Of a stretch of DNA of 61,260 nucleotides, positions 17,155-61,150 are shown in pieces (within the stretch, counting starts at the first letter, position 1; the number at the start of each line of letters is the position of its first letter). The notes under the pieces were generated by a model, which searched no databases, was not told where the DNA came from, and worked only from the letters and a program-made list of their open reading frames with translations. Origin of the DNA: a virus; the IMG/VR virus record IMGVR_UViG_3300035698_013754, positions 1 to 61,260 of that record; one strand, written 5' to 3'. The position numbers and the translations under genes are program-made.

Positions 17155-17413
17155 TGTAGTTGTATCTCAAATCTCGCCAGACGAGTCAGTAGGATACATC
17201 AGGCAACGCCGATAAAATCATAGGCTTAACCTCTAGCGAGGGATGCGGCGACCCGGATGTGTAACCGGGACATTGCGGGTGGAAGGTCGGTATCTTATGA
17301 CCCCCATAAGGTCAAAAAACAGGGATCATCTCCCTGACCCGCTACAGTCCAAGAGAAGAGTGGGCGACGGCTCACGACAAGTACCCCCAATCACGCGAAG
17401 GGGGTATTTTGTT
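17155..17413 (+). ncRNA. Candidate structured non-coding RNA with terminator
   Basis: No convincing frame fills 17153-17454, but the plus strand is full of pairable segments: TGTATC/GATACA (17161/17193) enclosing CTCG/CGAG; CCTC/GAGG; CCCGG/CCGGG (17252/17265); GCGGGT/ACCCGC (17275/17337) extended by GGAC/GTCC (17268/17347); CTTATG/CATAAG; CAGGGA/TCCCTG; GTGGGC/GCTCAC; and a final terminator. The long GCGGGT helix encloses two hairpins, making a multibranch loop. It does not fit the group I intron, cobalamin or glmS patterns I compared. A phage-encoded structured RNA or a leader of the next gene is inferred. Confidence 0.55.
17382..17413 (+). terminator. Intrinsic terminator before the isomerase gene
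   Basis: TACCCCC (17382-17388) and GGGGGTA (17400-17406) form a seven-base-pair stem, followed by TTTTGTTT. It ends the structured RNA region. Confidence 0.8.
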
Positions 17414-29346: not shown

Positions 29347-29376
29347 TTTACAATTTTAGGTAATTGCCTGTATAAT
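29347..29376 (+). promoter_or_regulatory. Promoter of the sugar cassette
   Basis: TTTACA (29347-29352) and TATAAT (29371-29376), 18-base spacer. A weaker form of the GGATGAATGTCACT motif (11 of 14, reverse orientation) lies directly upstream at 29332-29345. Confidence 0.65.
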
Positions 29377-29448
29377 AGAGTGTAGAAATAGATACGCATG
29401 ATCAGCGTATTGAACACGATGCTTCCTCGCCTTTCTACACTCTATTAT
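29372..29448. repeat. Perfect 17-base inverted repeat enclosing a hairpin
   Basis: ATAATAGAGTGTAGAAA (29372-29388) is the exact reverse complement of 29432-29448. Inside, ATACGC/GCGTAT (29392/29405) forms a smaller hairpin. The left arm contains most of the -10 hexamer. No T-tract follows, so it is not an ordinary terminator. Confidence 0.75.
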
Positions 29449-29474
29449 GCAGACGGAAGCAACAAAGGAAGCAG

Positions 29475-29948
29475 ATGAAAACAATCCCACTAACTAAAGG
29501 AAAATCCACTATAGTTGATAACGATATGTTTAAGTATCTAAATCAATGGAAATGGTGTTTAATGAGTAGTGGAAATGGTTACGCGGCAACTAAATATAAT
29601 AAAAAGATAATTACAATGCACAGATTATTAATCCATGCTCCAAAAGGAATGGAGGTTGACCACATTAATGGTAATGGACTAGACAATCGAATATGCAATT
29701 TAAGAATCTGCACGCGATCTCAAAATCAAATTAATAAAGGTTTGCAAAAAAATAATACAACTGGGTATAAAGGTGTTTCGTTTATAAAAAAACATAGAAA
29801 ATATAGAGCGACAATAAGGATAAACGGAAAAAGTATGTACCTTGGTGAGTTCGAAAGTGCTAAAGGGGCAGCATTTGCTTATGATAATAAAGCGAAAGAA
29901 CTATTCGGAAATTTCGCCAAACTTAATTTTGTGGAGGAACCATGTTAG
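29475..29948 (+). CDS. HNH-AP2 homing endonuclease
   Basis: 157 residues behind AAAGGAAGCAG. The N-terminal HNH part has MHRLLIHAPKGMEVDHINGNGLDNRICNLR and a CTRSQNQ pair; the C-terminal part, GYKGVSF...YRATIRINGKSMYLGEFESAKGAAFAYDNKA, is an AP2 DNA-binding domain. This is the standard layout of free-standing homing endonucleases in phages. It is A-rich compared with its neighbours. It stands at the left border of the sugar cassette and overlaps its first gene by seven bases. Confidence 0.85.
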   Translation: MKTIPLTKGKSTIVDNDMFKYLNQWKWCLMSSGNGYAATKYNKKIITMHRLLIHAPKGMEVDHINGNGLDNRICNLRICTRSQNQINKGLQKNNTTGYKGVSFIKKHRKYRATIRINGKSMYLGEFESAKGAAFAYDNKAKELFGNFAKLNFVEEPC

Positions 29949-42334: not shown

Positions 42335-42553
42335 TTATCTCGATAGTGTGTAATGTTGGCTTTTGTCAATTTCAATAATTCTATGAACTTCCAATCCATT
42401 GAGTCCAGATATTACAGTCTCTCCAGAATGTTTTCTGCACATGGGGTAAAAATCAAAATCGTCTAAATCAGGATTGAACCATAAAAAATATACTGCAGGT
42501 TCAAGGCAATTGTTCAGACAGCAAGTTGCTAATCGGTCTTTTTTATGTTTCAT
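42335..42553 (-). CDS. Leftward zinc-knuckle protein, 72 aa (moron)
   Basis: ATG 42553 follows AGAGGAAAAATT. Ligands CCLNNC and CRKHSG make a plausible zinc site about 28 residues apart, with WFNPDLDDFDFYPM between them. It is on the strand opposite all its neighbours and has a promoter-like sequence, marks of an independently expressed accessory gene. Confidence 0.65.
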   Translation of the reverse strand: MKHKKDRLATCCLNNCLEPAVYFLWFNPDLDDFDFYPMCRKHSGETVISGLNGLEVHRIIEIDKSQHYTLSR

Positions 42554-42571
42554 AATTTTTCCTCTACAAAA

Positions 42572-42600
42572 AGTATATCATTTTATAGAATCGACCGTAA
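42572..42600 (-). promoter_or_regulatory. Promoter of the leftward moron
   Basis: On the minus strand TTACGG (42600-42595), 17-base spacer and TATACT (42577-42572). The -35 is weak. A TGACA-AA-TGTCA palindrome (42602-42613) lies between it and the divergent rightward -10. Confidence 0.5.
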
Positions 42601-59471: not shown

Positions 59472-59885
59472 TCAATATCCAATAACTTCGATTCTTCCGG
59501 TTTTCCCGGTTGATCGTTCATCCAAAATCCTCTTATGTTCTGCCTTATAGTGTTTGGCGATCTCTTTGAGTTCTCTCTTATTCTGTTTAGCAAGAGTAAT
59601 GTTACGGGTTTTTTCTACCAGTACATCATAAGCTGATTGCCCCTTCAGCTCTAAGTAAAATTCGTGGAACTCAACCTTATGTTCGTCCATGTGCCGATGG
59701 CATCCCATACACATACAAAATAAATTGATTGGATCAGTTCTAACAGCCTGGCTATCCCTGCCCTCATAATGGCAGCAGTTCAATCCCCTACGTCCCCTGT
59801 AATCTGTTTTACATCGTTCACAGATATTATCAGCCCCTTCCCTGATACAACGAGATACCCATGCGTCCGCGCTAGTTATTTTCAT
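59472..59885 (-). CDS. NinG/HNH-like recombination nuclease
   Basis: 137 residues behind GGAGGATCAGAA. CERCKTDYRGRRGLNCCHYEGRDSQ then NLFCMCMGCHRHMDEHKVEF give the CxxC, CCH and CH arrangement of NinG/Rap and HNH phage recombination proteins. Overlaps the initiator stop by ATGA. Its position in the replication operon fits a recombination role, unlike the homing-type HNH genes. Confidence 0.7.
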   Translation of the reverse strand: MKITSADAWVSRCIREGADNICERCKTDYRGRRGLNCCHYEGRDSQAVRTDPINLFCMCMGCHRHMDEHKVEFHEFYLELKGQSAYDVLVEKTRNITLAKQNKRELKEIAKHYKAEHKRILDERSTGKTGRIEVIGY

Positions 59886-60574
59886 TTCTGATCCTCCAGA
59901 ACTTCCGATACATCTCGGATTCCCCTCTTGGCCAGTTCTCTTTCTATCTCGGATTGCTTGTCAGCCGGGTTGGATGATTTAGACTTGCCACGCTTCTCCC
60001 AATTGAGCAGGATCTTATCGATGTATGCCCAAGATCGGGCATTGTGAACGACAGCTTCGTTGATCGCATCCAATATCCACTGGTTTGGATAGTTATCAAT
60101 TGCATCCAACATCTTATCCCTGATGATTGATGTTAGTAATCCTATGTTGTTCTCATAAAGTCTAAAAGCAGATTTGTCACCATCAGTAGATGACGGTTTA
60201 ATGACGGTTAATGATGATTCGGGTGACACAGCTATGTCACCCCTTTCTGTCGTGGTTGTCACCCCTTTTTCACCCCCCATGTCACCCCCCACATCTAGGG
60301 GTGACAAAATGGCACCCCCTTCATGCGGGATACGCCATTTGTTAGTACCTTTGGGACCTTGACCGTCAGGTATAAGATAGCCCTTCTCTTCTAGTATCCT
60401 GGTTATCCTCTGGACTGATCTTTCACTGTAGCCGGTCTTTTCAGCAACCGTTGAAACTGCAGGGAATATTGAAAATCCATTATGGTCTGCATGATCCGCA
60501 TAAGCCAACATGACAAGTTTCTCATCTTTATCTACTTTCAGATCCCAAACCATACCAGACATTTTGACGCTCAT
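59882..60574 (-). CDS. Replication initiator with winged helix and DnaD-like domain
   Basis: 230 residues from ATG 60574, behind AAAGGAAGTGAA. The N-terminal part (KLVMLAYADHADHNGFSIFPAVSTVAEKTGYSERSVQRITRILEEKGYL) is a phage O-like winged helix; the C-terminal part (FRLYENNIGLLTSIIRDKMLDAIDNYP...INEAVVHNARSWAYIDKILLNWEKRG) is a DnaD/DnaB_2 domain used to load helicase. A low-complexity linker between them is encoded by an array of GTCACCCC repeats, a likely origin. It would bind the origin and recruit the DnaB helicase. Confidence 0.8.
   Translation of the reverse strand: MSVKMSGMVWDLKVDKDEKLVMLAYADHADHNGFSIFPAVSTVAEKTGYSERSVQRITRILEEKGYLIPDGQGPKGTNKWRIPHEGGAILSPLDVGGDMGGEKGVTTTTERGDIAVSPESSLTVIKPSSTDGDKSAFRLYENNIGLLTSIIRDKMLDAIDNYPNQWILDAINEAVVHNARSWAYIDKILLNWEKRGKSKSSNPADKQSEIERELAKRGIRDVSEVLEDQK
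60221..60306. repeat. Iteron-like GTCACCCC array inside the initiator gene
   Basis: TGTCACCCC occurs exactly at 60235, 60257 and 60280, spaced 22 and 23 bases. A variant (TTTCACCCC) lies at 60269. The inverted form occurs at 60298-60306 (GGGGTGACA) and 60221-60228 (GGGTGACA). ATGACGGTT is tandemly repeated next to it (60191-60209). Lambda-type origins have iterons in the same place within the initiator gene. Confidence 0.65.
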
Positions 60575-60596
60575 TTCACTTCCTTTAGGAACAAAC

Positions 60597-60690
60597 AACC
60601 CCGCTCAAACCGTTACCGGAATCTGTCGAAGGATGCAAGTTTGGCTCAAGCGGGGTTATTTGTCGGTAACAAAAACTTGCCACCTTCGAC
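60597..60690. repeat. Three mutually interleaved inverted repeats in the initiator leader
   Basis: A: AACCCCGCT (60597-60605) with AGCGGGGTT (60649-60657). B: GTTACCG (60612-60618) with CGGTAAC (60664-60670). C: GTCGAAGG..GCAAGTTT (60625-60642) with AAACTTGC..CCTTCGAC (60673-60690). The order is A, B, C, A', B', C', so every pair crosses the others. The whole lies between the -10 at 60698 and the initiator ribosome site. Confidence 0.8.
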
Positions 60691-60697
60691 GGAATTC

Positions 60698-60703
60698 ATT
60701 ATA
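60698..60703 (-). promoter_or_regulatory. -10 element of the replication operon
   Basis: TATAAT on the minus strand; the -35 is weak. Transcripts starting near 60691 would begin exactly at the interleaved-repeat leader. Confidence 0.5.
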
Positions 60704-60706
60704 ACA

Positions 60707-61150
60707 CTATCTATTGATCTGCACGCTCACCCGGCACAAATTTAAGATTTCGTTCTCATGCCCTTCCACCATCACATAGTATTTATCGTGGACAGCTTCG
60801 ATTGGCCAGATTGCAGATTGGACCAACCCGAGTTCGAATATTTCATCAGGATGGACATTTCCACCGACTGCATAGAGTCTCAAATTCATAGGTCTATCCA
60901 GGTTTATAGTAAGTAATGCGCCGTTGAATTTCTTGTCAATAACGATGGTAGCGGAATCCTCAAGATGAACGCCATATCCAGGGGCAATGTATCCCCAATA
61001 ACATGAAGTCCATCCGTCAGATAGTACGATTGGGTGATCATTCTGCAGGCGCATTGTTTTTGGGATGAATGGGTGGATCACACTGTTTATCGTAAAGAGC
61101 GAAATAACAACCAATAAAACTGACAGAACTATCAAAATATTTGTGTTCAT
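60707..61150 (-). CDS. Membrane-anchored or secreted protein, 147 aa
   Basis: ATG 61150 behind AAGGAGGAAAA. The N-terminus (ILIVLSVLLVVISLFTINSVI) is one membrane span or signal anchor. The rest is a beta-rich outer domain (GWTSCYWGYIAPGYGVHLEDSATIVIDKK...). No family is recognised. An envelope-associated accessory role, such as superinfection exclusion, is possible but unproven. Confidence 0.55.
   Translation of the reverse strand: MNTNILIVLSVLLVVISLFTINSVIHPFIPKTMRLQNDHPIVLSDGWTSCYWGYIAPGYGVHLEDSATIVIDKKFNGALLTINLDRPMNLRLYAVGGNVHPDEIFELGLVQSAIWPIEAVHDKYYVMVEGHENEILNLCRVSVQINR

Follow-up and report, generated by a model that had tools for sequence, protein, structure and literature searches.

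The leader of the replication operon in the uncultivated phage analyzed here is probably an RNA switch that turns the start of phage DNA replication on or off. This conclusion rests on a set of competing interleaved hairpins, the last of which is terminator-like, and on the occurrence of the same layout, with other letters, in at least two other phages. The sequence under study, called the window throughout, is a single IMG/VR virus record of 61,260 bases (IMGVR_UViG_3300035698_013754). An RNA switch at this place had been suggested by the first-pass annotation, and the suggestion is now well supported by strand-specific G-U pairing, an ordered change of the fold with transcript length, and recurrence. 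Our hypothesis is that this block of the leader RNA acts as a transcription attenuator, in which a helix A, probably locked by a helix B, is the antiterminator and a helix C is the terminator, and we consider the chances of this more specific interpretation to be about even. If the switch operates in this way, the start of replication in these uncultivated phages is decided by a race between folds of a 100-nt leader RNA.

The replication operon is located on the minus strand and contains, in this order, the genes for the initiator, a NinG/Rap-like protein, a small LexA-like DNA-binding protein, and a DnaB-like helicase. The first gene past the leader (59882–60574, minus strand) encodes a DnaD/HTH_36 replication initiator of 230 aa, which matched Pfam HTH_36 (3e-11), Pfam DnaB_2 (4e-11), and PHROG 186, DnaD-like helicase loader. 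Its C-terminal domain resembles DnaD-like proteins of Chloroflexota, and the host of the phage probably belongs to this phylum because the best group-naming genome matches of the domain are nearly all from Chloroflexota. Between the two domains, the gene contains GTGTCACCCC-type repeats in direct and inverted orientation (60221–60324), which are probably a lambda-like origin with iterons; repeats are present at a comparable place within the initiator genes of the loci L136, L154, L155, and L167. The phage genome encodes the LexA-like DNA-binding protein and a recombination-directionality-factor-like protein, which would be expected of a temperate phage. It also carries a tRNA-Met (CAT) gene (17274–17345).

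The upstream gene stops at 60707 and the initiator ATG begins at 60574, and the 132 nt that separate them hold the interleaved block. The upstream gene (60707–61150, minus strand) has a strong ribosome site and encodes 147 aa with an N-terminal membrane segment that is apparent by eye; searches of Pfam and PHROG gave no match for it. A promoter-like box, TG-T-TATAAT (60698–60706, minus strand), was assigned by its match to the consensus of an extended -10 element and has no good -35 element. From the position of this box (TATAAT at 60703–60698), the expected transcription start was computed to be at about 60691. The Shine-Dalgarno-like site of the initiator, AAAGGAAG, is found at 60579–60586 on the minus strand. 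The block indeed extends, as originally described, from the expected start below the TATAAT to just before this ribosome site.

Three inverted repeats are present on the minus strand in the order A-B-C-A'-B'-C' between the TG-T-TATAAT box and the DnaD-type initiator, confirming their initial description. The spacing is nearly nil; almost all of the 101 bases are used, and six bases separate A' from B'. The 5' arm of A (GTCGAAGG, TG, GCAAGTTT; 60673–60690) is where the transcript is expected to begin and pairs with A' (AAACTTGC, AT, CCTTCGAC; 60625–60642) via 8+8 pairs that flank a 2x2 mismatch. The complementary arms B (TTGTTACCG, with the Watson-Crick core GTTACCG; 60664–60672) and B' (CGGTAACGG; 60610–60618) form seven Watson-Crick pairs (60670–60664 / 60618–60612), or nine when G-U pairs are counted. 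The arms of the third repeat are C (GACAAATAACCCCGCTTGAGCC; 60643–60664) and C' (GGTTTGAGCGGGGTTGTTTGTT; 60590–60611). Helix C turned out to be stronger than the 16 bases first noted, as the minus-strand RNA forms 22 contiguous pairs, 17 Watson-Crick and 5 G-U, and no other contiguous RNA helix in the window is as long. In addition, parts of A and B build a local hairpin, D (GGTGGCAA-GTTT-TTGTTACC; 60665–60684, with the stems 60684–60677 / 60672–60665), which had escaped the first description.

When the 120 nt were shuffled 20,000 times with dinucleotides preserved, the observed triple of Watson-Crick helices was never reached, and five shuffles contained any interleaved triple of helices of at least 7 bp; a second test with 10,000 shuffles likewise gave no match to the triple. 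Across both strands of the 61 kb window, the block was the top interleaved triple. Another triple, at 42461–42590, has A/T-rich helices and was taken as chance. On the opposite strand of the block, the longest contiguous helix comprises only 10 pairs versus 22 on the transcribed strand. That C, with its 5 G-U pairs, is intact only on the transcribed strand suggests that the complementarity is kept up at the level of RNA. The inverted repeats sit at a promoter and phage regulators are encoded nearby, so an operator, an origin, or a recombination site in the DNA might be considered in place of an RNA element. This is highly improbable, as the origin-like iterons are located within the initiator gene instead, the 22-bp helix is kept intact by G-U pairs on one strand only, and additional copies of the A, B, and C arms do not occur beyond chance elsewhere in the window.

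The leader folded in silico with -47.6 kcal/mol, versus -31.0 kcal/mol for shuffles (z -4.5). When folded separately, the energies were -21.2 for A, -7.7 for B, -33.3 for C, -8.8 for D, and -42.1 kcal/mol for C and D together. The order of folding was predicted from minimum-energy folds of the growing transcript, beginning at the expected start at about 60691, with energies that ignore pseudoknots. D was the first structure to appear, at about 30 nt. A:A' was predicted at 65–70 nt, once A' was complete, with about -23 kcal/mol (-23.3), and from about 95 nt it was replaced by C:C' together with the returning D, which reached -46 kcal/mol when C' was complete. A therefore precedes C in these prefix folds, and the leader has an earlier helix that competes with the terminator-like one, as in an attenuator. 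The first-pass annotation had also proposed that each pairing excludes, or forms a pseudoknot with, the others. Mutual exclusion is expected for B and C because they share bases and have no spacers. It does not hold strictly for the remaining combinations, as A and a shortened C could form an H-type pseudoknot, and the upper part of A and B could form another one, with a two-base loop across the 7-bp helix B.

The 5' arm of C is A-rich and then GC-rich, and the 3' arm is GC-rich and then U-rich, directly before the ribosome site. The GC core GCGGGG of C' is followed by TTGTTTGTT (60590–60598, minus strand; 7 T of 9). T accounts for six of the first 8 nt of this tract, a density that is reached by 1.2% of the 8-mers in the window. 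With a GC-rich hairpin and a U-rich tract upstream of the gene, C looks like an intrinsic terminator, though its loop of 31 nt is unusually long. The length of the loop, which exceeds the usual range, speaks against termination at C; a standard terminator scan did not call C, because it allowed only loops of 3–8 nt. The terminator-like character of the last helix was not part of the first description, and it gives the layout a simple meaning, namely, antiterminator versus terminator.

An attenuator of this kind could operate as follows. In the nascent RNA, the small hairpin D would form first and then A:A', the loop of which would hold B and the 5' arm of C. B' could pair with B in this loop as it emerges, and the resulting H-type pseudoknot would lock hairpin A. 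In the locked state, the 5' arm of C would be kept in the loop, the polymerase would pass, and the antiterminated transcript would switch the initiator on. Should A/B be weak or disrupted, or form too slowly, C' would pair with C over 22 bp at the moment when the RNA polymerase is at the U-rich tract, and the transcript would end ahead of the initiator gene. The amount of initiator would then be set by the choice between A/B and C, presumably under the influence of some signal such as a protein, an RNA acting in trans, or the ribosome. Both central steps, i.e., termination at C and the locking of A by B, are what we infer from the layout of the leader.

Alternative folds might also influence translation or RNA stability, and not termination, for example, if RNase III or another nuclease acts on the long helices C or A, or if the folds control standby access to the ribosome site. 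RNase III needs a helix of about 22 bp, and C is a 22-bp helix that ends 3 nt before the AAAGGAAG site. The site itself can be covered by a small hairpin, UUCC-UAAA-GGAA, and the same phage has a second structured leader (29366–29475, plus strand), the loop of which is complementary to the ribosome site of that leader. In that leader, TG-TATAAT lies within a 21-pair inverted repeat, an inner hairpin is also present, and the loop TGCTTCCT is complementary to the ribosome site AGGAAGCA (29466–29473) of the next ORF as well as to a decoy, GGAAGCA, at 29455–29461; it is possibly a ribosome-site pseudoknot switch. At the replication leader, however, the predicted access of the ribosome site changed only moderately between the free fold and a fold with C' blocked, and no arm is complementary to the site over its length. 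Post-transcriptional control would also leave unexplained the U-rich ends of C, which are present in the window and in two of the leaders from other phages described below (L141 and L190). We therefore regard it as rather unlikely.

Scans with single proteins (initiator, DnaB helicase, terminase) did not yield relatives, but an alignment of the N-terminal domain of the initiator (A4) led to 80 initiator loci in IMG/VR, 70 of which were nonredundant. The search upstream of related initiators that the first-pass annotation had suggested was successful: two further phage lineages, L141/L142 and L148, show the A-B-C-A'-B'-C' order within 170 nt upstream of the initiator, with arms that differ in letters from those in the window. 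L142 is identical to L141 over the locus. The helices A/B/C comprise 7/8/16 pairs in L141/L142, which has an additional outer helix of 11 pairs ending with GGCGTTTTTG, and 13/7/15 pairs in L148. L148 has a promoter-like TTGACG-17-TATAAT, and its A begins about 8 nt past the -10 box, near the expected start, as in the window. Neither the L141 triple nor the L148 triple was matched by any of 10,000 shuffles. In their best-aligned parts, the initiators share only 31–39% identity.

The arms cannot be aligned between phages, and a nucleotide alignment of L141 and L148 was not meaningful; covariation is therefore argued from the layout and not from alignment columns. These leaders share the layout but not the letters, so further cases can be sought through their architecture and not through sequence similarity. 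The C arms of L141 (1391–1468) and L148 (1391–1458) have TCTGTC(A/T)GGGGCG in common, in the 5' arm of one and in the 3' arm of the other, and exact matches occur nowhere else in the two contigs.

A simpler version was found in L190–L192, where the loop of an A+B hairpin (17+8 bp) contains the 5' arm of C, and TTTTTTATTTT comes after C, giving the clear pattern of an intrinsic terminator immediately before the initiator. Helix C of L190 leans in the same direction as that of the window, with 19 contiguous pairs, 7 of them G-U, on the sense strand; on the antisense strand of this leader the longest helix has 16 pairs and the next 8. In L138, by reading of the sequence, a 17-bp helix shares a strand with the terminator-like AAACCCCACAGGGGCGGTTTTTTG. 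On the basis of the leaders of L141/L142, L148, L190–L192, and L138, choices of the antiterminator/terminator type appear to precede phage initiators in several lineages, the window representing the interleaved form. Two features of these leaders are at odds with attenuation as a common mechanism. The first 8 nt of the terminator tract contain six T in the window and in L141 and seven in L190, but only three in L148, the U-tract of which is weak. Furthermore, the default state is not uniform, because the minimum-energy fold of L190 retains A and the folds of the other leaders retain C.

Three leaders contain an ORF: in the window, it starts with GTG at 60683, has 32 codons, and stops at about 60587; in L148, the ATG at about 1382 is preceded by AGGAGG and followed by an ORF of 31 codons in total; and in L141, 38 codons begin with the ATG at about 1388 and end with a stop that overlaps the initiator start. 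Coupling to translation is thus another possible input, although the ORFs may be due to chance. In L148, a tiny ORF (1480–1506; ATG GAA CCT TGG TTG CTA CGT TGA) overlaps the TTG with which the initiator starts, and translational coupling is possible there.

The nearest relative of the initiator, that of L123 (46% over 214 residues), and most of the 70 nonredundant relatives have no such leader upstream, because the initiator closely follows another gene and is not the first in its operon. The element therefore tracks the promoter-proximal position and not membership in the initiator family; no close relatives were found in which the initiator opens an operon. When 629 kb of fetched locus sequence were scanned, the high-scoring interleaved triples outside iterons and repeat families were those of L141/L142, L148, and L077; other high scores were mostly due to origin iterons or repeat families. 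The L077 triple (525–627; 13/6/8 bp) lies on a Thermoflexaceae chromosome contig, away from the start of the matched gene. Exact DNA patterns of the leader were not found in IMG/VR, and blastn of the leader against phage records yielded nothing or chance-level matches only. None of 21 initiator-like genes in Chloroflexota genomes had an interleaved triple upstream, and a covariance model built from the single leader sequence found no homologue in 301 Chloroflexota genomes. Over 68 viral initiator loci, the only match of this model outside the window was L133, with an E value of 0.43, which is chance level.

A sensor function would be another way to use the same elements. A and B could form an aptamer, with C as the expression platform, and the ligand could be a metabolite or a phage protein such as the initiator. 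This would follow the usual logic of riboswitches, and the two-base loop across the 7-bp helix B, as derived from the coordinates, would suit an H-type pseudoknot. Nevertheless, no conserved aptamer letters were seen among the three leaders, the leader had no match in Rfam, and nothing in the window reached a gathering score, making a ligand- or protein-sensing pseudoknot very unlikely.

The leader might also produce its own regulator, similarly to the immunity RNAs of phages P4 and P1/P7. A short terminated leader or a processed piece of it would expose A' and B' in the loop of C. By pairing in trans with A and B of the next transcript, these arms would keep A:A' from forming there and cause termination, and the lysogen would thereby block an incoming phage from replicating. 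In the C fold, exactly A' and B' are exposed in the loop (60642–60612), the loop of C holds both arms in all four leaders (window, L141, L148, and L190), and target sites are present in the same leader, as A and B at its 5' end are complementary to them. The LexA-like and recombination-directionality-factor-like genes are in line with a temperate phage, and P4 provides the precedent of a CI RNA that acts on replication genes (PMC4825925). On the other hand, the A-B/A'-B' order implies that the two pairings are not collinear in trans, and the C4 family of Rfam gave no match. We regard such an immunity RNA as unlikely. Doubtful to a somewhat greater degree is the combination of both ideas, i.e., an undescribed class of phage leader RNAs in several lineages, in which an interleaved A+B pseudoknot antiterminator is opposed by the long-loop terminator C, the terminated RNA shows A'/B' and serves as its own immunity RNA in trans, and replication is controlled from a single strand without a protein repressor or an opposing promoter.

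Several known systems share features with the attenuator that we favor. The strand order of the leader is the same as in ABCABC ("pseudotrefoil") pseudoknots, which occur in 51 sequences of a survey (PMC3390330), and therefore, the topology as such is not new. In contrast to these pseudoknots, the length and close spacing of the helices in the leader appear to preclude their simultaneous formation, and they are probably alternatives. The HK022 putRNA consists of two adjacent hairpins at the start of the phage early transcript (PMC9378689); D and C in the minimum-energy fold resemble it in the coarse two-hairpin arrangement, but C is a 22-bp hairpin with a long loop. With classic antiterminator/terminator attenuators and terminating riboswitches, the leader has in common an early alternative helix and a late GC hairpin with a U-rich end. 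It differs from classic attenuators in the interleaving of antiterminator and terminator, which have almost no strand in common, and in the 31-nt loop of the terminator, which consists of the antiterminator's own 3' arms. A keyword search of the open-access literature did not reveal any phage replication gene preceded by an antiterminator and a terminator interleaved in this way.

Among phages, the CI RNA of P4 is processed from the leader transcript and pairs with complementary leader sites, leading to premature termination of the replication genes (PMC4825925). P4 with its CI RNA and seqA-seqC immunity and P1/P7 with the C4 RNA likewise have a phage leader whose internally complementary sequences are able to switch off a replication operon (PMC4825925; C4, PMC5320573). 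The leader described here differs in length and order, and its action in trans is a prediction. The closest plasmid systems are the Rep attenuators of pIP501 (repR) and pT181 (repC). In pIP501, attenuation is controlled by an antisense RNA from an opposing promoter, and the leader region is 329 bp long (PMC4981023), compared with about 100 nt here. Control by a counter-transcript had been one of the options of the first-pass annotation, but a consensus scan of the plus strand detected no promoter-like site leading into the block, and antisense control of the pIP501 or pT181 type is therefore not supported. If the switch acts as proposed, it resembles that of some plasmids, but its interleaved layout dispenses with an RNA from the opposite strand, and it would add a new class to the RNA control of lysogeny and replication.
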